Source of the DNA: a virus
Virus record (IMG/VR): IMGVR_UViG_3300035666_000125
Span: 1 to 29,991 of that record
Length of the DNA: 29,991 nucleotides
Strand: one strand, 5' to 3'
Within the stretch, counting starts at the first letter, position 1; the number at the start of each line of letters is the position of its first letter. The translations under genes and the position numbers were made by a program. Under the pieces are notes generated by a model. The model was given only the letters and a program-made list of their open reading frames with translations, did not search any database and was not told where the DNA came from. This document shows, piece by piece, positions 7,912 to 25,925 of this stretch.

Positions 7912-9539
7912 TAGGATTTCCTGTAGAGGTTTTCTTCGGTCTCTTCAACCTCCCCACCGAATGGCTTCGAGCAGGCAGCCCAGATAGCCAACATGAGAGA
8001 GTCAGGGTAGTCGTCCTTTGCGCCACGCATGTCGGGGTGGTGCAGGGAAAGGAGACCGTTGCGATACTCCTTTTCTAAATCAAGCATCTGGGAATGGAAG
8101 GACTTCCATTCGCGGGTCTGGCGAAGCTCGTCCCCACCCGGCCATGTGATCATTCCTGTGTGTATATCTGCGAGAAACTGCCGTCCCATATCGTCTTTGC
8201 TCTGGGCGCTGAACGGGATCATGTCGATGTCAACGCCCTCAAAGCGGGCTTTTACCCGGTCGCCCAGGCTCACGCCGACACCAGTATAATCGAGGGCGAG
8301 GCGTTCGATGCCCCACTTGGCAAGGAACCTTTGGATCTCTTCAAACTGCGCTTCGTAGTCATCGCCCTGCATCTCAAGCCAGTCAACGACATGCTTACCA
8401 AAGATTTCTACAGTGAATGCCCCTTGCTCGCCATCGTAGCCTTCGAGGGTCTGGCGGGGATTGTCCCAGTTGACTTCGAGGACGGTAACGACGGTCGAGT
8501 CATGCAGCTTGCCGAAGTCGATGCCAGCAACGTAGTGCATTCCCTTGCGCGGGCGCGGGAGAACATTGGAGAAAACGCCGGTAGAGACACAGCGATTTTC
8601 AAACATGACCTCGTTGAGCGCGAGGCCACGGTGCAGCATGAAGCGGCAGAGGTAGGACATCTGGAACTCGTCGCTGCGCTCTCCCAGACGCATCATCTCC
8701 TTCTTGACGAACTTCTCATAGAAGGAGTTGTACTTGGCGGCGGTGGTCCAATCCGCGAAAAAGTGAGTACGGTCGGCCCCTTCGCGCTCTCTGCGCTCGT
8801 TGCGCCGGATGGTGTTGTAGAAATGGGATTTCTTGGCGTTCGCAGTGCCAATCTTGACGATTGTGCCACCAGTTGCAGCAAGCATCGGGCCGATGGATTT
8901 CGTTGCCTTCTCATCACTTATGTCTTGCGCCTCTTCCATGATACCGAGGTGGAGCGTCAACCCTTCGATGTTCGACTGATCACTGGCGGTGCTGCACTTG
9001 ATGTAGGAACCGTTAGAAAGTTTGAGTGTGTCACCGTTGTTCGTGTCGAACTGGAGGCCCAACTCGTTGGCAAGCTCGACCGCCTGTGGCTGCTTGAAAA
9101 AAGAACGGACGCGGTTGTAGATAACCCCAGCCTGTTCCTTCTTGGGGGCGAAGATGCCGATCCAGAAGCCATTTTCGTAGGATCGGATCGTGCCGCTCTT
9201 CGGATCGCGGTAGCGGAAGCGGTCATCCTCTGGGAACTGGCGAGCAAGCTCTGGCAGCAGGAGCATGCAGGAGCCAGCCGTTGCGCCGAGCGTGTGGGAT
9301 TTACCGCTCTGGCGCGAAAAGAGGGCGCTGATCTCTTCTGACTCACGCTCAAGAACCGCACGAAAGATTCTTTTGGCGAAAGAAATCTGATACGGGTAGA
9401 GTTTGCCGTTGGCAAGAAGCTCTGAAATCAGAACCATCTTGTCGATGATCTTCTCAGTCGTCAGGCCTGGGGTGCGGCGAACGATGAGGCTGTCCATCGT
9501 TAGCTGGGACAGGCCATCCTCTGGATCTTCATCGCTCAT
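7911..9539 (-). CDS. terL: Terminase large subunit
   Basis: 542 residues. This is the packaging motor: an ATPase plus a headful nuclease. The Walker A-type loop is SRQSGKSH (residues 75-82). Walker B with catalytic acids is HLGIMEEAQD (198-207). The RNase-H-like nuclease is shown by GIDFGKLHDS (D341), LALDYTGVG (D417) and DDYPDS (509-514). All ATPase and nuclease acids I would look for are present, so it should be active. The ATG overlaps the stop of the LAGLIDADG gene (ATGA). No small terminase subunit is recognisable next to it. Confidence 0.95.
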   Translation of the reverse strand: MSDEDPEDGLSQLTMDSLIVRRTPGLTTEKIIDKMVLISELLANGKLYPYQISFAKRIFRAVLERESEEISALFSRQSGKSHTLGATAGSCMLLLPELARQFPEDDRFRYRDPKSGTIRSYENGFWIGIFAPKKEQAGVIYNRVRSFFKQPQAVELANELGLQFDTNNGDTLKLSNGSYIKCSTASDQSNIEGLTLHLGIMEEAQDISDEKATKSIGPMLAATGGTIVKIGTANAKKSHFYNTIRRNERREREGADRTHFFADWTTAAKYNSFYEKFVKKEMMRLGERSDEFQMSYLCRFMLHRGLALNEVMFENRCVSTGVFSNVLPRPRKGMHYVAGIDFGKLHDSTVVTVLEVNWDNPRQTLEGYDGEQGAFTVEIFGKHVVDWLEMQGDDYEAQFEEIQRFLAKWGIERLALDYTGVGVSLGDRVKARFEGVDIDMIPFSAQSKDDMGRQFLADIHTGMITWPGGDELRQTREWKSFHSQMLDLEKEYRNGLLSLHHPDMRGAKDDYPDSLMLAIWAACSKPFGGEVEETEENLYRKS

Positions 9540-10339
9540 GCGCGTACCTCATACACAGAAATAGGTTTAGGCAATCGGAGGATCTTCAAAACGGGCGTTT
9601 CGTACCACATATCGCCGTATTTGTCTTTGATGGTGGAGATCTTCGCCGCTGATTTCTTGACGGGAGAGTGCGACAGACGCTTATCGCGCAGTTGTCCCAC
9701 GAGATCCACAAATAAACGGTAGTTGGCGTACCCGCTGAATATGAGGCGGTGCGCGTCGGGCTGGTTCTTGGTCGGACTGTCTCGACGCTGCCCGCGAAAA
9801 CCGTGGCTGGCGTGGATGTCGCGCATGAGGGATGAGAAAGCAGTGTTGGTGCTGCGCCTCATGCCCATGTCGATGTCGTTTCCACCCTTCTTCGCGGACA
9901 TCCAGCCGTCAGCGCCCCACAGGCCGCGCAAAAAAGCTACTTGGGCCGTGGAGTGAAAAAGAGACACAGCAGTTGGGAACCCCTCTATGAAGCACATCTT
10001 CCTAATAAAATGACGTAGGGGGTTGTTGATGCCGCCGGTCATCGTCAAATCGAACCCGGCGAGCTTGTTGTACCACGAAACTTTTACTGTGGGGAACTCT
10101 TTGCTGACGAGGCGCTCCAGATGATTTAGGCACCACACGTCGCTGTTGGCGAATCTTACCGACTGACTGGCGTTATTTATGGTGCCATCGCCCAGAAGCC
10201 ACCCGAGAATCTCTGCTTTGCCGTCAGTGATCGGCTCGACCCCGGTAGCGCGGTGCTGCTTGCCCTGGTTATCGTTGAAAAAGTAGTCGTAGGGCAGTTG
10301 GACGGGTGCGGAAGGGAGAATCCGGCTCGCTGGGCTCAT
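9536..10339 (-). CDS. Intein-derived LAGLIDADG homing endonuclease, apparently free-standing
   Basis: 267 residues from the ATG at 10339. Two LAGLIDADG motifs are present: ILGWLLGDG (residues 44-52) and FLRGLWGADG (136-145), each with its catalytic acid, so this is a single-chain enzyme. The C-terminus (ETPVLKILRLPKPISVYEV) resembles intein splicing block F but stops there: no His-Asn end and no downstream extein. The frame upstream of the ATG is open but crosses a terminator and has no ATG, GTG or TTG start in the 26 codons between the terminator and the chosen ATG. The best reading is an intein endonuclease core that lost its splicing ends. It overlaps terL by 4 bases (ATGA). Confidence 0.8.
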   Translation of the reverse strand: MSPASRILPSAPVQLPYDYFFNDNQGKQHRATGVEPITDGKAEILGWLLGDGTINNASQSVRFANSDVWCLNHLERLVSKEFPTVKVSWYNKLAGFDLTMTGGINNPLRHFIRKMCFIEGFPTAVSLFHSTAQVAFLRGLWGADGWMSAKKGGNDIDMGMRRSTNTAFSSLMRDIHASHGFRGQRRDSPTKNQPDAHRLIFSGYANYRLFVDLVGQLRDKRLSHSPVKKSAAKISTIKDKYGDMWYETPVLKILRLPKPISVYEVRA

Positions 10340-10417
10340 CAGAAGCTCGCCTGGGGCGATATTCTGGACGGGTAGGGTCTGGGTGGCAGTTCGGACGATT
10401 GCGCGTCCTGGGGCATC
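10340..10417 (-). other. Untranslated remnant resembling intein N-terminal (Hint) block
   Basis: In the same frame as the endonuclease, the 26 codons upstream of its ATG read APGRAIVRTATQTLPVQNIA and then PGELL. This resembles the start of an intein splicing domain ('g.tlV.T..g.lpVqdI.pGdlLms'). There is no start codon inside it, the usual first Cys/Ser is not evident, and it begins at the T-tract of a terminator. I therefore annotate it as a probable decayed piece, not coding sequence. This is inference from similarity by eye. Confidence 0.45.
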
Positions 10418-10452
10418 AAAAAAGAAGCCTCCGCGTAAAACTACGCGGAGGC
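10418..10452 (-). terminator. Rho-independent terminator between MoxR-VWA unit and terminase unit
   Basis: Bases 10427-10437 and 10442-10452 form a perfect 11-bp GC-rich stem (GCCTCCGCGTA and its complement) with a 4-base loop. The minus-strand product continues TTCTTTTTT. This is a textbook terminator and marks a transcription boundary ahead of the endonuclease and terL. The terminase unit must be read by read-through or by a promoter I could not place. Confidence 0.85.
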
Positions 10453-10567
10453 ATCGCTCTTCACCACAGAACGTGGATTTTGGATATTGGCTGGGCAGTG
10501 AAAGCCGACCGCAGGGCAGTCGGATGGAGCAGTGGTCGGACAGGGCCGTGGGGTAGAACACCCGCGA

Positions 10568-11369: not shown

Positions 11370-12857
11370 TTACTCGTCATCATCGTCATCGTCGGCGGGA
11401 GCAGTGCGCTGCGCTCCGGTGGGTTCGTGGATGCCGAGCGATGACTCTTCCTCGTTGATGCCGTCGAGGGCGTTGCCGACCGTCAGTTCGTTCTTGGCGT
11501 TGTCCCAGGTGATCTTCTGGTGCGTGTCGCTGGCGGCGATCAGAGCGCCGATGTGACCCCCATAGGAGCGAAGACTGTGCGAGATGAACAGGCTCCGCAG
11601 GATGGTGCGAGCAGGCTTGTCCGTCTTGAGCGAGGGATTGATGGGCGAGCATCCATCCGTGATCAGAACGATGTCGCATTTCTTGTAGGTCGGGTCCTCA
11701 CTCACGTTCTTGTACGCGAAGCGCACAGCGGCCTCGATGTCAGTCGAAGAGCCGTTATAGCTCTGCCGACCGAGCCACTTCATCGCGTTGAGCGCACTGG
11801 TCTTGTCCATTGCGGTCTGCATGTTCGTGCGAGACGGTGCGCCTGCGAAGGGGACAACCCAGACTTTGTAGTTGCCCTTCATGGCGAACTGGAGCAGTGC
11901 GAGCGTGATCACGTTGGACGCGAAGGCGCGGCAGACGCGACCACCGAGATCTTGAGCCATCATCGACCCTGACACGTCGAGCAGCACGAAGAGGTGGGAG
12001 ATACCTTCCTTCTCTTCGATGTTGTACTTCACGTCCAAGTTCTTGTTGGCGACCTTAGCGTCGAAAGTCTCATGCGCGACCTCCGTGGGATCGACAGTGG
12101 AAACTTGAGTGTGATCCTCCATCTGATCTACACGCTTGCGGTCCTTCTCTTCGTCGCTGTCCTTGTCCTTGAGCTTGGCGAGGCCGAGCTTCTCGGACAG
12201 CTTGGTGAAGACCTCGAACAGCAGCGGGTACATCTTCGGGAGTTCCTGACCCTTGCTGACAACGGAACCCGCAAGCTGGCTACTGGAACTTTCAGTAGCA
12301 TCGTAGTAGCGACCCGCGCCGCAGCCGGAACTGATGAACGCTGACAGTTCCTCGGACTCAAGAATGTCCTGGTAGGTGGTCAGTTGCTTGTAGATGAGGT
12401 CGAAGGACAGAGGGGTGGCACGCGCCCTCTGGATCTCATCAAGGCCGTTCTGGTCGATGTAGGTGCCGCTGAACGACCCGCTGGCGTGGTCGATGTTCTG
12501 GGTCTTGCTGGCAGCGAGGGCGCGGGCCTCTTGAGCCTTCTTCAACTGCTCGACGAAGACGAGAACCGCCTTCATCGGATCGTTGAGCTTGATCAGCGCC
12601 TCCATGTAGGTCGAGGTGGCGAGGGACTCAAGAAAGTCCTTGCGCTGCGCGATCTGGCTGCGCGAGGTCCAGAATGCGGGATCGAAGCGGTCGATGTCCT
12701 TGAGCAGCTCCTCGTCGGGGATGAAGGACGTTCCCTTGTTGGAGCAGACCAGATAGATGTCGAGGATCAGATCGGGGTCGCTGACCTTGTTGTCGATGCA
12801 GACCTTCTTCAAGGACTCAGCGATGGTCGGGATGATAAAGCCGTCGTTGACGTTCAT
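11370..12857 (-). CDS. VWA-domain protein, partner of the MoxR ATPase
   Basis: 495 residues. The C-terminal half is a von Willebrand factor A domain with a complete metal-site (MIDAS) motif: DVSGS (D294, S296, S298), T372 in NGSSTDIEAA, and LITDG (D401). The layout (long helical N-terminus, acidic linker at about 228-260, VWA near residues 285-450) is like ViaA/CobT-type partners of AAA+ ATPases. The C-terminus ends in an Asp run. It follows the MoxR gene by 45 bases. In known pairs the VWA protein bridges the ATPase to a target; the target here is unknown. Confidence 0.85.
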   Translation of the reverse strand: MNVNDGFIIPTIAESLKKVCIDNKVSDPDLILDIYLVCSNKGTSFIPDEELLKDIDRFDPAFWTSRSQIAQRKDFLESLATSTYMEALIKLNDPMKAVLVFVEQLKKAQEARALAASKTQNIDHASGSFSGTYIDQNGLDEIQRARATPLSFDLIYKQLTTYQDILESEELSAFISSGCGAGRYYDATESSSSQLAGSVVSKGQELPKMYPLLFEVFTKLSEKLGLAKLKDKDSDEEKDRKRVDQMEDHTQVSTVDPTEVAHETFDAKVANKNLDVKYNIEEKEGISHLFVLLDVSGSMMAQDLGGRVCRAFASNVITLALLQFAMKGNYKVWVVPFAGAPSRTNMQTAMDKTSALNAMKWLGRQSYNGSSTDIEAAVRFAYKNVSEDPTYKKCDIVLITDGCSPINPSLKTDKPARTILRSLFISHSLRSYGGHIGALIAASDTHQKITWDNAKNELTVGNALDGINEEESSLGIHEPTGAQRTAPADDDDDDE

Positions 12858-12902
12858 GGGTTCCTCGTGTTTGTTTGAGTGTGGTTGCTTGTGAGTCGCA
12901 GC

Positions 12903-14021
12903 TTAGGTGGCCTGGGACTTCTGGTACAGGGTATCTGCGAGCTTCAAGATGCTCTCGCACTCGGCTGCGCCTCTCGCTTCGCCCAGGTGGTTGCAGGCAT
13001 CGAACGCTTCTCGGGCCTCTACTGCGACGGAGAGGATTTCCTCGTAGGTCTCAGCCGCCTCTGCGAACTGCTTGAGCCGCTGGATGCGCGAGGTGGTGAT
13101 CAGCACATGCGCCTTGGCTTGCTGCTCTTGCAGCGCGGTGCCGTAGACAGACATGGCAGTGCCGAACTTCTGTGCGCTAGTCTTATCATTGGTGACGACG
13201 AAGCACGTCTCCAGCGCGGTCAGGTCTTGCACAAGTGCAACGCTGCGGCCCGACAGGACTGCGCTGGATCGAACGATGTCCAGGCATCGCTTGACGGTTC
13301 GGTCTGTGAGTTCCAGGCCCTCACAGATCTTGAGGTAGACGCCCATGAGCTTGTCGTTGATCTCGACCTTCCGCAGGGCGCGGTTGATCCGCAATACGTC
13401 TGAAAAGTTGAGTGCAGGGATGACAACCGGATTGCGGTCGGCCTTGAGCATCCGCATGCGATCCTCAAGGCGGGGCAGCTTCTCCAGCTTGGCGCGAAAC
13501 AGGAAGCGGTCGAGGACAGCCTCAAGCTCACCGTCCTCGTCGCGGTTGAAGTTGGTGGTGGCGATGGCCGTATGCAGGGGAGACTTCACCTGCTGGACGC
13601 CGCGAGTGAAGGTGCGCTCGTTGAGGATCTCAAGCAGGGCGCGAAGAGCGCCACTGGAGAGGTCGAACACTTCATCAATGAACCCGAAGTGCGACTCGAC
13701 AAGTGAGCCTTCGGTGCGGTGCTGGTAGACACCCTCTTCGCGGAAGAGCTTCATGTCGAGCGGGCCGACGAGGTAGTCCTCCGTCATTTTCTTGGTGCAT
13801 TGGACCTTGAAGGTGTCACAGCCTTGCAGCACGTCGAAAAACATGCGTACCATGTAGGACTTGGCAACGCCAGGAGGACCTTCCATCAGCAAGTGCTGGC
13901 CGGTGATGGTCGCGTACTTCATCTGCTCCACGATGGCGGTGCGCCCGATGACGGCCTTGTCGAGAGCGGAGAACGTAGCGTTGATGCGGGCTACTGAGTC
14001 CCTTACTGGCGCGGTTTGCAT
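12903..14021 (-). CDS. MoxR-type AAA+ ATPase
   Basis: 372 residues, usual length for the family. Walker A is GPPGVAKS (48-55), Walker B is FGFIDEV (112-118), sensor 1 is ATTNF (154-158), and an arginine-finger candidate is VLDRF (R172). The insert LLEILNERTFTRG (129-141) is typical of MoxR/RavA proteins. The C-terminal ~90 residues are helical. A clear Shine-Dalgarno (AAAGGAG) lies 4 bases before the ATG. With the VWA gene downstream it forms the classic MoxR-VWA pair, which acts as a chaperone or metal-insertion machine in bacteria. Confidence 0.9.
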   Translation of the reverse strand: MQTAPVRDSVARINATFSALDKAVIGRTAIVEQMKYATITGQHLLMEGPPGVAKSYMVRMFFDVLQGCDTFKVQCTKKMTEDYLVGPLDMKLFREEGVYQHRTEGSLVESHFGFIDEVFDLSSGALRALLEILNERTFTRGVQQVKSPLHTAIATTNFNRDEDGELEAVLDRFLFRAKLEKLPRLEDRMRMLKADRNPVVIPALNFSDVLRINRALRKVEINDKLMGVYLKICEGLELTDRTVKRCLDIVRSSAVLSGRSVALVQDLTALETCFVVTNDKTSAQKFGTAMSVYGTALQEQQAKAHVLITTSRIQRLKQFAEAAETYEEILSVAVEAREAFDACNHLGEARGAAECESILKLADTLYQKSQAT

Positions 14022-14857: not shown

Positions 14858-14884
14858 ACTGTAGCAGGCCGTGGATTACGGCAA
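14858..14884 (-). promoter_or_regulatory. Candidate promoter upstream of the 217-residue gene
   Basis: Minus strand: TTGCCG, 15 bases, TACAGT, sharing TAATC, GGCC and TACAGT with the block at 14066-14092. It overlaps the last codons of queE. Similarity of the two blocks is the main evidence. Confidence 0.4.
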
Positions 14885-15574
14885 GCTCAGAATCTTGTGA
14901 AGCTGGATCGAAAGGCGGAAGCCTTGCGACAGTGAGAGCGAAAGAGCGGCCTGTAAGTTTTCGCGTGTGCGATTGGCCCGTGTGATGGGATCATCGCTGC
15001 GATCTTCTACAGGTTGGAGATAGATTACTGCGCCTGGATCGTGCGCTATAACGTGGTTGATCAGTTGCGTCTTGGCCGGGACAAGGACTTTGTACCAGTC
15101 AGCTTTGATCACGATGCGTGCGGTCTTGGGCGAGCATGACAGGAATATATCGGGCCTGCTGTAGTGCAAAGGGTTGAACTTCGGCTCGACGGTCCCGTTC
15201 GTTTCGACATCGACCCAGCCGAAACTTCCGAAGACGATCCGCTCAAGAAAAGGTACATCAAGCTGGAGCAGTGGCTCGCCTCCGGTGAGGACGAGGCCGA
15301 ACTTGTCAAAGTCGTCCGTCTTGATGTGCGCGATGCTTGCGAGAACGGCGATCCTTGCGCGGATCTCCGTGGTGGTCATCTCGGTGCTGCGGTGAAGCTG
15401 CGGGGTATCGCACCAGGGACAGGTCGCGCTGGGCTTGGATTCGTCCTCCCAGAGATTGCAGCCTGAGAAGCGGATGAAGAAACATGGCATTCCCGCATGG
15501 CGACCTTCTCCTTGGATCGTGGGACCAAAGATTTCGCTAATGCGGTACTTACTACGCTGGAGAGAATCGTTCAT
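14876..15574 (-). CDS. queE: 7-carboxy-7-deazaguanine synthase (radical SAM)
   Basis: 232 residues. QueE converts 6-carboxy-tetrahydropterin to 7-carboxy-7-deazaguanine, on the route to preQ0. Seen here: the family opening EIFGPTIQGEGRHAGMPCFF (residues 14-33), a cluster motif C39-X12-C52-X2-C55 (QueE proteins often carry such an enlarged loop in place of CX3CX2C), and TGGEP (97-101). In phages this pathway feeds 7-deazaguanine modification of DNA as protection from restriction. FolE, the first step, is two genes upstream. QueD and QueC are not in this window. The ATG overlaps the upstream 83-residue gene by 23 bases. Confidence 0.92.
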   Translation of the reverse strand: MNDSLQRSKYRISEIFGPTIQGEGRHAGMPCFFIRFSGCNLWEDESKPSATCPWCDTPQLHRSTEMTTTEIRARIAVLASIAHIKTDDFDKFGLVLTGGEPLLQLDVPFLERIVFGSFGWVDVETNGTVEPKFNPLHYSRPDIFLSCSPKTARIVIKADWYKVLVPAKTQLINHVIAHDPGAVIYLQPVEDRSDDPITRANRTRENLQAALSLSLSQGFRLSIQLHKILSLP

Positions 15575-15803
15575 CGTGCCAGTGCTCCATCTTGTTCATC
15601 ACTTCGTCGGAGAAGCCAGCAGCTTGGTACGGCTCTTTCTCCTTGAAGCGGAAAGCGGTTTGGACGGTCCATTCTCCGTCAGTGCTGTTGACGCGGCGTA
15701 GAGCGCCAAGCACCACGACATCAAAACGGCTGTGGAGTGCGTCGAGAAGTTCCTCGTCCGTGGCGAGGTCGAGAGGGGAGGGGCGGGCTGGTTCATCGGT
15801 CAT
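15552..15803 (-). CDS. Unknown small protein between folE and queE
   Basis: 83 residues from the ATG at 15803, chosen because it makes an ATGA overlap with the folE stop; a start 24 bases upstream is possible. It lacks the His motif of QueD, so it is not the missing pathway enzyme. Mixed alpha/beta, acidic start. Its place inside the folE-queE unit hints at a link to that pathway, but nothing in the sequence shows a reaction. Confidence 0.6.
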   Translation of the reverse strand: MTDEPARPSPLDLATDEELLDALHSRFDVVVLGALRRVNSTDGEWTVQTAFRFKEKEPYQAAGFSDEVMNKMEHWHDERFSPA

Positions 15804-16444
15804 GCGTTTCCTTTCATGCTGTACCACTCGCTGATGTTACGATAGAACTCCTGCTTCGTAGGCTCAAAGTCATCCATCGTGAGAGGTTGTCCGCTGATGG
15901 ACGACTTCTCTTCACACCAGAAAGCGTCAGTGAACGTGCGTGAGTTATAGTCTAGCACACCTCGGCAACTCATACAGGTATGTTCTGCCGCGATGCGGAC
16001 GCCGACGAAGCGCGGGTCGAGGTTCCTGACAAGCTCGTCGCGGATCTTGGTCAGAATCTCTTCCTGCATGCTGGGCTGACGGGCGATCCACTGGACGGTG
16101 CGCGGCAGCTTTGACAGTCCTACTAGCTTATTTCCTGGTAGGTAGCAGACGTGGCAGACGCCCGTGAAGGGCAGGTGGTGGTGGGCGCACATACTGACGA
16201 GGCGGATACCGCAGATGGAGACAAGCTGGTTGGCCGTGTCTTTGCACACTGGAAAAGTTGTGAACTTGAACGGCATCTTCCGCAGACCCGGCATGAAGTC
16301 GTTGTGCATCATCTTCGCAACGCGCAGGGGAGTGCCCTTTGTGTCGGGCTTCGTCAGGTCTATACCCAGACACTCACAAAAATCTGCGTAGTGGGCTGCC
16401 GCCTCGGCAATGCGAGACGGGTCTTTGGAAAGCAGCTTGGGCAT
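15800..16444 (-). CDS. folE: GTP cyclohydrolase I
   Basis: 214 residues, normal length. It makes 7,8-dihydroneopterin triphosphate from GTP, the entry to preQ0 and folate synthesis. Motifs in order: TPLRVAKMM (38-46), SMCAHHHLPFTG (84-95), YLPGNKLVGLSKLPRTV (101-117), MQEEILTKI (126-134), EHTCMSCRG (154-162). Zinc ligands C86, H89 and C157 and the catalytic Ser-Lys of GLSK are present. Odd point: most family members have Cys-Glu-His-His, here Cys-Ala-His-His. With queE nearby, a role in DNA 7-deazaguanine modification is more likely than folate supply. Confidence 0.93.
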   Translation of the reverse strand: MPKLLSKDPSRIAEAAAHYADFCECLGIDLTKPDTKGTPLRVAKMMHNDFMPGLRKMPFKFTTFPVCKDTANQLVSICGIRLVSMCAHHHLPFTGVCHVCYLPGNKLVGLSKLPRTVQWIARQPSMQEEILTKIRDELVRNLDPRFVGVRIAAEHTCMSCRGVLDYNSRTFTDAFWCEEKSSISGQPLTMDDFEPTKQEFYRNISEWYSMKGNA

Positions 16445-21773: not shown

Positions 21774-22523
21774 CTAGAGTTTTCTCCCGATGGGAGCGTT
21801 GGGATCTTCGGTTCTGGGGAACACGCAGGAACGGCACATGCGATAGTGTCGCGTACCTGAGATTAAGTCATCACGAATCTTCTTCATGCGCGACTCTGCT
21901 GCACCGTACACTTCTGCAATGCGGGACCTGTTGAGGTCTCCAAACGGCACAGAAGCGTTCCAGTCCATGCAGCATAGGACGAGCTTGCCTTCGTGGTTGA
22001 TGGTGAGATCGACCAGAGGCGAATGGCAGGGACGGTGGCCGGTTATCTCACCGCTGGTGTCATCTTTCTTGAGCCGGTCATCGAACTGCTGGATCTCCCA
22101 GGAAAAGATGAGTGGGGCCTTCGGATTGTCGAACGCAAGCTGCTGCATCCGGTCGCGCTCATGCTCGCTGTAAAGCGAAACGCGAATGGTGTGGACGCCG
22201 TGCCGCATCAGGCGCTCAAGAGATTCTTGTTTGAGGTACGCCCCGTTGGTCCAGATCAGAACGCCTTTGGACGTTGGGCAGTGCTGCTGGACGTAGGCGC
22301 AGAAGTCGAGCAGCCTCGTGTCCATCATTGGCTCGTTGTAGATATGAAAAGCGAAGCCGCCTTGGAACTGGTGCTTCCCGGCCCACCTGATCACGTCACA
22401 AACGATGTCCGTGGACAGCTCCTTCCTCTCGGTGACATGGTGCGCTGGACAGAGCGCATGCAACGGAGCCAAGTTGCATTGGTTTGAAAGCTCAAGAGTG
22501 ATCCGCTGGGTGTATTCAAGCAT
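21774..22523 (-). CDS. Radical SAM / SPASM-domain protein with unusual cluster motif
   Basis: 249 residues. A TIM-barrel-like radical SAM part (ITLELSNQCNL at 8-18, FHIYNEPMMD at 59-68 in place of GGEP, VLIWTNGAYL at 88-97, HTIRVSLYSE at 111-120) is followed by a SPASM-like Cys region (C166, CC184/185, C230, C233). The usual CX3CX2C is absent: C16 is followed by C25 (CX8C) and then Pro-Ala-His-His. Substrate unknown. SPASM enzymes often modify peptides, and some phage radical SAM enzymes modify DNA bases. It lies between the inverted repeat and the Arg-rich gene. Confidence 0.75.
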   Translation of the reverse strand: MLEYTQRITLELSNQCNLAPLHALCPAHHVTERKELSTDIVCDVIRWAGKHQFQGGFAFHIYNEPMMDTRLLDFCAYVQQHCPTSKGVLIWTNGAYLKQESLERLMRHGVHTIRVSLYSEHERDRMQQLAFDNPKAPLIFSWEIQQFDDRLKKDDTSGEITGHRPCHSPLVDLTINHEGKLVLCCMDWNASVPFGDLNRSRIAEVYGAAESRMKKIRDDLISGTRHYRMCRSCVFPRTEDPNAPIGRKL

Positions 22524-22800: not shown

Positions 22801-22983
22801 CTAGCGCCGATTCTGGTAGAGGTGCGCGATCAGATAGACGCACGCAAAGGGCCAGCCAACAGAAATGAGAAAAGCAGAGGCTACTGCGGTCAGCGCATCA
22901 TGCCTATCGTGAGCAAAAGGCTGCGTGATCACCAAGAAGAACAGGAACGCGGGGATCATCCCACCGAGGTAGAGGAAAAGCAT
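22801..22983 (-). CDS. Small two-helix membrane protein
   Basis: 60 residues from the ATG at 22983, which overlaps the stop of the fusion gene (TGATG); a GTG one codon earlier is possible. Two hydrophobic segments (LFLYLGGMIPAFLFFLVI and ALTAVASAFLISVGWPFACV) flank a short polar loop with Arg and Asp, and the chain ends NRR. Size and topology would fit a class II holin, but it is far from the lysozyme-like gene, so function is open. Confidence 0.6.
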   Translation of the reverse strand: MLFLYLGGMIPAFLFFLVITQPFAHDRHDALTAVASAFLISVGWPFACVYLIAHLYQNRR

Positions 22984-25925
22984 CACGGAGTCCTTTTCAT
23001 AAAGGCGCGGAGCTTGAGGCTACCGCTAGAATGAGAAACTGGAAGGGGTGAGGCCTGGACAGCCTTCGCAGCCGCCCAGGGATCTCCTTTGACGAACACT
23101 AGGATGTTCTGGTGTGTCTTGCCGAACTTTCGGCTGGAGGTGAACTGCTTGGAGGCCCGCATCGGGAGTGAGCCGACCGGAGTAACAAGAATGGCTTCGT
23201 TGTAGAACTTGAGGCCTGCGTCGAGGAACGCTTGCACGGTGTCCCCGACGAAGTTGCGGTACGGGCCACCAGGACTGCGGACTTCCCCAACAACAAACAC
23301 GGCGAAGCGGTTATCTTTTAGTAGGGCGCAGGACTTCTGAATGATGTCCCGGTAGGCTTCGCGGAACTTGGGGTAATCCATCGTGCTGATGTCTCGCGGG
23401 TCATCAGAGTACACCTCCAGATCTGCATAGGGAGGGCAAGAGAATATCATATCGGCCTGGAGTTTGCACAGAGCCGGAATATCTCTGCTGTCTCCCACGA
23501 TCCATCGCGGAGTGATGTCAGCCGACGGATGATGTCTGGACCGCTCTTCGGCCACTGCTTGACGGCGTGGCTGTGGCTTGGTGTTGGCTTCCTCCCAGCG
23601 TGTCTCAATGGCGAGGGCGGTGGAGATGTCCTGTGGCACGCTGACGGTGGTGTCACGTCCTCCCTTGATCTCAGCCACAATCCGGTCCCGTTCCTCCGTG
23701 CCGAATAGGGTGGCTAGGCTATCGCTGACCACATCAATGATGGCAGGCCCGTGACCCCAGTTTGGCTTACAACAACCCGTTGGTGCCCGGTGGTGGCATA
23801 CCAGTGTTTGAGCTGGGTTCAGCCGAAGCGGGTAGAGGTGGCATACCACCGGCTTGTCTTCAGGGGGTAGCGTACATCCCTGTGGTCCGAGCAGATCGCA
23901 CCCATGGCCCTTAGTCGTGCCAGACTTCGGCGGCCAGAAGCTCTCACTGCGGCAACAACGACCACCACACCCGCCGGGCTTAGTGATGCCCTCAACGGTG
24001 CAGTTCAGCGGCTTGTTGGCCCACGCGGCGCTGATCCGCCATACCTGTTCGTCCTTGTCGAACTGTGGCTTGGCTGTCTTGGTTGCGTCTTCGTGCGTGC
24101 TGGTAGCAGTCTGACGGACGCCCACGCACCAAAGGCAGTCGGAGTCCTTGAGAAAAGATACGCACTTGGCTTCGTACACGGGGTCGAGGACGATACTTGA
24201 CCCAGAAATAGTTGCGTGAGTCTCCGCGTGGTAGTCAACACCACTAGAAACTAGAGTAACCATCTCACGCCAGTTTGGTGGAGCCCACTTATCGAGTCTG
24301 GCTGTAGGATCTGCGCCAACGATGACCCCGAGAACTGGCGTTGACCTCTTGGCGTCGAGCAGACCCCACAAAACTCCAGCGAGGGACATCCCCGAGCCGA
24401 CAGGGATGACGATACGGGAGACAGTCTTTGGGATGTTGGCAACCTGAGCGCGGGTAGCTGTGATAGCCTCCTCGCATTCCATCCCGAAAGGAATCTCTTT
24501 CCATCCGCGAGCTTGCGCGTCTGCGTGCGCTCTCGCTACGATGACGGTATTGTACCCTGGATTGTGGGTCACGCGCTCTGCGCCAACGTCGATGGCTGCT
24601 TGCACTTCTGGACTGGCTTCGCCTGTCGGAGTATGCACGCGACAGGGGATACCCAGGCGCTCGGCAATGTGCGCTACTATATTTACTTGTGGTGAGGCGC
24701 GAGAGCCTGCGGTCACAAGGCCTTTAGCTCCTTGAGCTAGACCCCAGCAGGTGCGTACCTTGCCACCGGCTACTCCCGCGATGCTGAACAAGTCATCACG
24801 CTTGAACCAGATGTTCCCGTGCTTCTCGACAGGGGTGATCTCTGGGGTATTGGACCCGAGCGGTTTGGCTGGGGTTGTATCCAGTTCCTTCCACTGCGCG
24901 ATGTTCGCTGAAACCTGCTCGGGGCGAAGGTCAACGCCGACATAGGGAAAACCCATCTTGGCAGCGACGACTCCGCGAACACTCCCGCCCGCAAACGGAT
25001 CAAGCACAAGGCCCTTCGGAGGGCAGAACCAGTTATACATAAGCTCGCACAGAACCGGATCAAAGATGCTCGTAGCATTCTGCTCACTAATGTTTCCTTC
25101 TGTGCCGAAGGCTTTCCCACTTCTGCGGGCTTCATTCCAGAGCTTCTTCTCTTCTTCGTCAGTGACGCCCGCCATAGCAGCGGACATATCAAGCATGTTG
25201 GAGCCACGGCCAACCTCACTGCGGATGCCAAGTGACTTCCATTCGTTCTTTCTGTCCTGCCACGCGCCATCACGGGCATTGAGGACACTGAACGGAGGAA
25301 AGCCGAAACGCTTGGAGAGGTTTCCTGGGGCAGTGACTCCGCGACGAAGCATGTCGAGCATCTTCCGCAGATCGTCATTCATGCCCATAGCGCGAAATCT
25401 ATCACGCATCTCTTGCGGGGCGCTACCGATCTGGACGTACATGAACACCAGCCGTGGCGTGGCATTCATCAACTTCGCGGTCTCCACCGCAAAGCCCTTC
25501 CCTTCGTACAACGTCTTCTTCAACACGATCTGCTCGGCCTTCTCCAGTACAGTCAGTTCTTTGCGTACCAGATTCTCGTCTATTTCAACGATTCGCGGGT
25601 CTCTGTCCGTCACGCACACGCTCACCTCCTTCCAACCCAACTTTTTTATAGCTAGCAGTCTGTGCATTCCTGCAACCAACGACACGCGCCCACTGCCGTC
25701 CTTGCTAACAATAATAGGCTGGAGCAATCCGTTCTGGCGTATGCTGTCCACCAGAGATTCCGAGACCTCCCCGACACGCATTCGTGAGCCTACGTGAATC
25801 TCTGACACTGGTATCTTCATCAGTGTGTCGGTACTTTGGGCAGGGGTGCTTGTTTCTGGCGTAGCCCGATTTTTCATGCTTGCTGCTGCGGTGGACCGTA
25901 CTAGCATTTTCTTGAGTGCGTTCAT
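22983..25925 (-). CDS. Fusion: ParB-like domain + DNA methyltransferase interrupted by PLP-dependent enzyme and Cys-cluster domain
   Basis: 980 residues from the ATG at 25925 (AGGA 8 bases upstream); the frame is open further but that part crosses repeats, a terminator and another gene. Domains: ParB-like, about 37-170 (IPVSEIHVG, LVAGMHRLLAIKKLG, ENLVRKELT); first half of a methyltransferase, 285-345, with SAM motif LDPFAGGSVRG; fold-type-II PLP enzyme of the D-cysteine desulfhydrase/ACC deaminase type, 362-605 (WFKRDD, GGKVR with likely Schiff-base K389, PVGSGMSLAG phosphate loop); YkgJ-like cluster, 640-725 (CGGRCC, HGC, GCTLPP, KPVVCHLYPL); second methyltransferase half, 800-948, with catalytic SCPPY (829-833). 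The methyltransferase thus seems split by two inserted domains. DNA modification is the likely field of action; the chemistry is unknown. Confidence 0.85.
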   Translation of the reverse strand: MNALKKMLVRSTAAASMKNRATPETSTPAQSTDTLMKIPVSEIHVGSRMRVGEVSESLVDSIRQNGLLQPIIVSKDGSGRVSLVAGMHRLLAIKKLGWKEVSVCVTDRDPRIVEIDENLVRKELTVLEKAEQIVLKKTLYEGKGFAVETAKLMNATPRLVFMYVQIGSAPQEMRDRFRAMGMNDDLRKMLDMLRRGVTAPGNLSKRFGFPPFSVLNARDGAWQDRKNEWKSLGIRSEVGRGSNMLDMSAAMAGVTDEEEKKLWNEARRSGKAFGTEGNISEQNATSIFDPVLCELMYNWFCPPKGLVLDPFAGGSVRGVVAAKMGFPYVGVDLRPEQVSANIAQWKELDTTPAKPLGSNTPEITPVEKHGNIWFKRDDLFSIAGVAGGKVRTCWGLAQGAKGLVTAGSRASPQVNIVAHIAERLGIPCRVHTPTGEASPEVQAAIDVGAERVTHNPGYNTVIVARAHADAQARGWKEIPFGMECEEAITATRAQVANIPKTVSRIVIPVGSGMSLAGVLWGLLDAKRSTPVLGVIVGADPTARLDKWAPPNWREMVTLVSSGVDYHAETHATISGSSIVLDPVYEAKCVSFLKDSDCLWCVGVRQTATSTHEDATKTAKPQFDKDEQVWRISAAWANKPLNCTVEGITKPGGCGGRCCRSESFWPPKSGTTKGHGCDLLGPQGCTLPPEDKPVVCHLYPLRLNPAQTLVCHHRAPTGCCKPNWGHGPAIIDVVSDSLATLFGTEERDRIVAEIKGGRDTTVSVPQDISTALAIETRWEEANTKPQPRRQAVAEERSRHHPSADITPRWIVGDSRDIPALCKLQADMIFSCPPYADLEVYSDDPRDISTMDYPKFREAYRDIIQKSCALLKDNRFAVFVVGEVRSPGGPYRNFVGDTVQAFLDAGLKFYNEAILVTPVGSLPMRASKQFTSSRKFGKTHQNILVFVKGDPWAAAKAVQASPLPVSHSSGSLKLRAFMKRTP

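Follow-up and report, generated by a model that had tools for sequence, protein, structure and literature searches.

A phage ParB–DNA methyltransferase with PLP-enzyme and cysteine-rich inserts: a member of a modular system and a candidate for DNA base hypermodification

A stretch of viral DNA of 29,991 nucleotides (IMG/VR record IMGVR_UViG_3300035666_000125, positions 1 to 29,991; hereafter, the window) encodes a chain of 980 amino acids in which a ParB domain precedes a DNA methyltransferase (MTase) fold, and this fold is interrupted by a PLP enzyme and a YkgJ-like cysteine domain. It represents one of several arrangements in which a modular phage system occurs. The explanation that best covers the whole, and that we hold to be somewhat probable, is a self-contained phage enzyme for DNA base hypermodification. 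In such an enzyme, the ParB domain would help DNA binding, the transferase would attach a group taken from SAM to a DNA base, after which the PLP domain would process, on the DNA, the amino-acid part of this group; the Cys domain, putatively Fe-S by analogy with FliB, would provide a further or alternative step. Likely, in more general terms, is base hypermodification in which the PLP enzyme works on an amino-acid group attached to the base.

The gene (22983..25925, minus strand) starts with an ATG at 25925, preceded by AGGA 7 nt upstream, and ends with a stop at 22985-22983. The open frame extends past this ATG to 26390, and the plus strand across the same interval is closed by many stops. 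A preliminary description, made from the letters alone, had reported one unbroken frame of 980 residues holding ParB, the first MTase half, a complete PLP enzyme, a YkgJ-like cluster, and the second MTase half; the frame lies at exactly these coordinates, Pfam, PHROGs, and motif searches returned the same order, and the strand, absent from that description, can now be added.

All of the domains that follow lie on the minus strand. The ParB N-terminal-type domain and its following helices span residues ∼34-140 (25506..25826), with ParB_N matched at residues 54-108 (E 2.7e-9) and phrog ParB families matched as well. The first MTase half, residues ∼203-350 (24876..25319), contains PPFSVL..W..RK, FDPVLCEL, motif I, and beta2-alphaB; motif I itself, DPFAGGSVRG (309-318; 24972..25001), is the SAM-binding loop. 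The inserted PLP enzyme occupies residues 358-617 (24075..24854), and the YkgJ/DUF3109-like domain with eight Cys residues 625-785 (23571..24053). The MTase then resumes at residues 803-955 (23061..23519) with motif III (W..GDS), motif IV, and the C-terminal strands; motif IV, SCPPY (829-833; 23427..23441), has a Cys where amino-MTases have D/N/S. The N6_N4_Mtase profile is matched in two stretches (4.2e-10) and PALP at residues 370-540 (5.8e-10). Thus, the profile check proposed at the outset came out above the curated Pfam cut-offs for ParB, MTase, and PALP, but weak for YkgJ (DUF3109, residues 690-744, 0.006). Among the PHROGs, the fusion matches the phage MTase families phrog_12517 (1e-96) and phrog_498 (2e-90), ParB families, and phrog_3650.

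Do the two MTase halves belong together? In the AlphaFold2 model of the full chain, built with 46 homologues, pLDDT exceeds 90 in both halves (residues 286-350 in the first) and in the PLP domain, and is low in the Cys region. An uninterrupted phage MTase of 318 amino acids aligns on this model with a target-normalised TM of 0.81 through a gapped alignment of 768 columns (Foldseek, BFVD), so that the residues of both halves make up one fold with the PLP domain looped out, as the preliminary description had foreseen. Its word “split” is apt insofar as the PLP enzyme is nested within one fold, but the MTase is interrupted at a loop rather than truly split. In the model, the insertion site is the loop joining helix B and strand 3. 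The junction is common to PLP and YkgJ inserts, after a helix with ..EQ..AN..Q and before P.W..GDS, and it is closed in insert-free members. The spacing between motifs I and IV varies from 67-79 residues without insert to ∼257-281 with YkgJ alone, 320-355 with PLP, and 521 in the window.

The motifs DPFAGG and SCPPY are near-invariant in the family: the former reads D[PC]F[AC]GG[SP][VT]RG in ∼183 family frames, and [ST]CPPY stands at motif IV in 83 of 86 members. With ParB_N, motif I (DPFAGG), and motif IV (CPPY) in one fold, the window protein belongs to the phage ParB-MTase family. Insert-free members, such as gp36 of Enterococcus phage phiFL3A and gp11 of HCTV-2 (phrog_498/phrog_12517), share with it the ParB domain, the MTase core, the motifs, and the C-terminal half at ∼39% or more identity, but carry neither a PLP nor a Cys domain.

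As for the novelty of the architecture, of which the preliminary description knew no other case, the relatives tell another story: the same parts recur, which excludes a unique architecture, and PLP and YkgJ behave as interchangeable cassettes that are often separate genes. MTase relatives number at least 550 in IMG/VR and 101 in bacterial genomes (80 were kept from each), and 37 records of the phage collection match the fusion. The search for homologues of the same order, suggested earlier, found this MTase with PLP inserted at the identical site in 30 or more contigs, in isolate phages, and in one bacterial MAG contig. The isolates include Pseudanabaena phage Pam4 (gp70) and Erythrobacter phages ZS04 and R6L (“DNA methyltransferase”), all without YkgJ. 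Mycobacterium phage Vincenzo has the same MTase (gp1) and PLP family (gp2) as consecutive, overlapping genes, and in Microcystis phage Mae-JY30 the two are again separate genes. YkgJ alone fills the insertion site in loci L047, L073, L089, L206, and L219. PLP, YkgJ, and MTase occur together in L040, L041, and L116 (MTase-YkgJ-PLP in tandem), in L108 (three separate genes), and in L102. Other layouts have PLP and/or YkgJ as C-terminal fusions or adjoining genes, and the exact double insert of PLP and YkgJ was found in this contig only.

How often was the site used? Inserted copies occur in both clades of the PLP tree, and the inserts are distributed patchily on the MTase tree (FastTree, 210 columns), in which only a few gains or losses are firmly forced; hence, the site appears to have been filled or emptied several times. 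The PLP enzyme of ZS04 comes from the other PLP clade, which implies at least two insertions. Even motif IV can be interrupted: in one contig (L035, 6497-9397) an intein splits this motif of a PLP-inserted MTase (..MIFT/CHPTGT...VVSHN/CPPYGD..), so that the chain has two nested inserts.

Among the alternatives to hypermodification, the one that survives best makes the protein a conventional methyltransferase (N6A/N4C, or N2G), in which PLP and YkgJ are metabolic passengers (serving, e.g., amino-acid or sulphur metabolism) that became fused since adjacent genes are easily joined. Plain methylation does fit a part of the data, and this counts against our reading: 92 of the ∼190 family loci, about half, have neither PLP nor YkgJ nearby; no column within the catalytic motifs separates PLP-linked from PLP-less MTases; and the solved structures closest to the MTase are those of Trm11-type enzymes, MboIIA, and CcrM. 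We nevertheless consider it unlikely, because mere passengers accord poorly with a single insertion site combined with several fusion layouts, with PLP relatives that accompany thymidine hypermodification genes (see below), and with the outcome of scans seeded with PLP or YkgJ, a check independent of the MTase query. The MTase family was present in 27 of the 28 loci seeded with PLP alone and in 16 of the 18 seeded with YkgJ. The sole PLP-seeded exception (L118, 863-4078) combines ParB, PLP, phrog_3271 (the aGPT-Pplase family), and P-loop genes, without the MTase. A separate YkgJ-seeded scan gave four loci only, and tblastn of YkgJ against the phage collection gave no match. In another contig (L117, 1829-4526), a PLP gene is flanked by a pair of other MTase-like genes (TSPP types), from which it appears that this PLP family may partner other MTases too.

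The PLP domain was described from the start as a complete fold-type II enzyme, and the two-domain fold, the Schiff-base Lys (K389), and the GSG phosphate loop (510-512) are indeed all present. Residues 358-617 superpose on the ACC deaminase homologue 1j0a with Z 25.3 (259 residues, rmsd 3.4; VIA-align), and D-cysteine desulfhydrase follows with Z about 24.9. K389 is invariant in all 52 relatives, the GSG loop is nearly so, and a Tyr-Glu/Asp-x-Lys signature near the C-terminus of the domain (Y584-E585-x-K587) is found in 51 of 51. Both the Glu (YEGK) and the Ser-x-Gln (here SPQ, 411-413) are shared with ACC deaminase 1f2d; D-cysteine desulfhydrase and 1j0a carry Thr in place of the Glu (YTGK). 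ACC carries the carbon skeleton of SAM's 3-amino-3-carboxypropyl (acp) group. Although fold and catalytic Lys are shared, the window domain differs from both enzymes: it is shorter, it is fused to a DNA MTase, and it scores 16-29 bits against cut-offs of 289-392 for ACC deaminase (TIGR01274) and D-cysteine desulfhydrase (TIGR01275), for example 29 versus 289 bits.

In the Cys domain, eight Cys are invariant or nearly so across 20 relatives, which makes a conserved cluster of the YkgJ kind. The DUF3109 profile gives 19 bits against a cut-off of 33.5, and the CxxCxxCC profile is matched in only 2 of the 20. Modelled alone with these relatives, the domain reaches a pLDDT of 82.7 (AlphaFold2); Foldseek and VIA found no solved structural match for this model, a result that does not show a new fold. 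FliB, a user of SAM, binds its [4Fe-4S] cluster through a CX4CX3CC motif (PMC8598068). FliB/YkgJ proteins likewise have a cluster of about eight Cys, the homology by the DUF3109 and CxxCxxCC profiles being weak and the cluster here putative; by this analogy, the domain is probably an Fe-S one, and one may guess at a redox or radical step.

Which group would the transferase move? A hint comes from a branch in whose loci neither PLP nor YkgJ was found, that of Croceibacter phage P2559S and the related contigs L200-L202. Here, a member of the ParB-MTase family overlaps speD (L010, 5224-6865, in P2559S); the linkage amounts to one clade with three distinct sequences. In P2559S, an ASCH-domain gene precedes the pair, and spermidine synthase gave no match. 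Decarboxylated SAM (dcSAM) is known to serve mainly as a donor of aminopropyl groups. The SpeD of P2559S is a true AdoMet decarboxylase (PMC9992855), so that the neighbour expected of a dcSAM aminopropyl-transferase is at hand in this phage; in the window, which is a genome fragment, AdoMet_dc has no match. Only in the SpeD-linked branch does GGSVRG of motif I become GDTVFG, which changes the positions of G314 and R317. Judged from the sequence, an Arg that is lost and an Asp that is gained where the loop holds SAM's methionine part would fit the loss of the carboxylate.

Together, the SpeD branch and the PLP link lead to the simplest unifying model: the enzyme would transfer either acp, which is then decarboxylated on DNA, or aminopropyl taken from dcSAM. 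In the likeliest chemistry, the acp end of SAM would be moved to the base and the PLP enzyme would decarboxylate it to a 3-aminopropyl base, while in the P2559S branch SAM would be decarboxylated first, with the same product. This exact chemistry is offered tentatively. The same reserve applies to its extension to the family as a whole, according to which the ParB-MTase proteins might not be methyltransferases at all but move acp or aminopropyl to the base, with PLP, alone or with YkgJ, finishing the group.

Alternatively, the PLP enzyme itself could make the adduct by adding aminoacrylate from serine (or a relative) to a base amine, with the MTase recognising and flipping the base or methylating it. 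Cysteine synthase and tryptophan synthase beta share the fold-type II of the domain (Z 20-21), Thr/Ser dehydratase profiles match it, and no gene that would supply an amino acid recurs beside the MTase/PLP pair, where only terminase, structural, or unidentified genes recurred as a third gene. On balance, this route is improbable: Tyr-Glu/Asp-x-Lys suits carbanion chemistry of the ACC deaminase type, and the SpeD linkage would be left unexplained.

On-DNA trimming, as hypermodification would require of the PLP domain, has relatives to point to. Residues 359-542 match phrog_3650 (1.3e-36), which is the family of the PLP enzymes of the Ackermannviridae, of phage Montesquieu, and of locus L118, where phrog_3271 also occurs. 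The LIMEstone1 enzyme matches phrog_3650 at 3e-238. That of Montesquieu adjoins a gene annotated as alpha-glutamyl/putrescinyl thymine pyrophosphorylase and matches several hundred phages, those inspected being mostly Ackermannviridae; both Montesquieu and LIMEstone1 have phrog_3271. These enzymes have the YE-x-K signature too, but they stand alone, with aGPT-Pplase and not with this MTase. Such phages reportedly make 5-(2-aminoethoxy)methyl-dU, the PLP enzyme being said to decarboxylate a base-linked amino acid (work of Lee et al., 2018/2022). The presence of 5-(2-aminoethoxy)methyl-dU in phage ViI is documented (PMC6449724). The established setting of the PLP family is likely the trimming of amino acids on DNA bases. 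Thus, the link to base modification drawn in the preliminary description gains from a family shared with aGPT-Pplase phages, while its chemistry keeps the rank of a proposal.

Could the PLP domain simply belong to thymidine hypermodification as already known, by 5-hmdU kinase and aGPT-Pplase, with the remaining genes of that pathway outside this 30-kb fragment and the MTase merely a carrier? The common PLP family, the fragmentary window, and the ThyX that it encodes would agree, yet the idea is very doubtful, since phrog_3271 is absent from the complete genomes of Pam4, Vincenzo, ZS04, and Mae-JY30 and has no match in the window, a genome fragment. In complete phages with MTase and PLP but no pyrophosphorylase, the amino-acid group must come from another source, and the MTase cofactor carries one. 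The 5-hmdU kinase profile PF18751 has no match in the window or LIMEstone1; in Vincenzo it matches, as a P-loop kinase (7.5e-74), a gene annotated as terminase small subunit (L005, 2562-3128), two genes after PLP. Finally, an assembly chimera, mis-assembly, or chance juxtaposition, which the restriction of the exact double insert to this contig might suggest, has practically no probability and is excluded by the unbroken frame, by the recurrence of the PLP insertion in unrelated contigs, isolated phages, and the MAG contig, and by the loci that unite all three parts.

CmoX offers a precedent of modified-SAM chemistry on phage DNA (PMC12783734). Its carboxymethylcytosine system (CmoX/CmoA/CmoY) likewise unites a phage MTase-fold, non-methyl SAM chemistry, ParB association, and further hypermodification; CmoX differs in being a C5-cytosine MTase homologue with an SPPC motif that uses Cx-SAM and has no PLP (PMC12783734).

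Should the ParB-MTase family as a whole move acp or aminopropyl, hundreds of phages and prophages would hold a class of DNA modification new to science. Our reading ties together three enzyme types whose common role in phages lacks explanation. The model predicts a new DNA base in the cultured phages Pam4, Vincenzo, and Erythrobacter R6L/ZS04. It would show that amino-acid-decorated phage DNA can be made without the known kinase/aGPT-Pplase route, and it would supply candidate enzymes, each a single chain, with which amines could be attached to DNA as labels. Part of the system may already have been predicted by Iyer et al. in 2013. A literature search that did not cover Iyer 2013, Lee 2018/2022, and Hutinet 2021 found no previous proposal of a system that joins PLP and MTase or uses dcSAM.

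The rest of the window has its own points of interest. Genes for QueE (7-carboxy-7-deazaguanine synthase) and FolE at 14876-15574 and 15800-16444 (minus strand) suggest a second DNA modification, of the 7-deazaguanine kind; TGT/DpdA-type (PF01702) has no match in the window, a genome fragment. Directly downstream of the fusion, a Radical-SAM/SPASM-like protein (21774-22523, minus strand) departs from the typical Cys spacing where CxxxCxxC would usually stand. A MoxR AAA ATPase adjoins a VWA-domain protein (11370-14021, minus strand), and a LAGLIDADG homing-endonuclease-like ORF (9536-10561, minus strand) lies directly upstream of the terminase gene.
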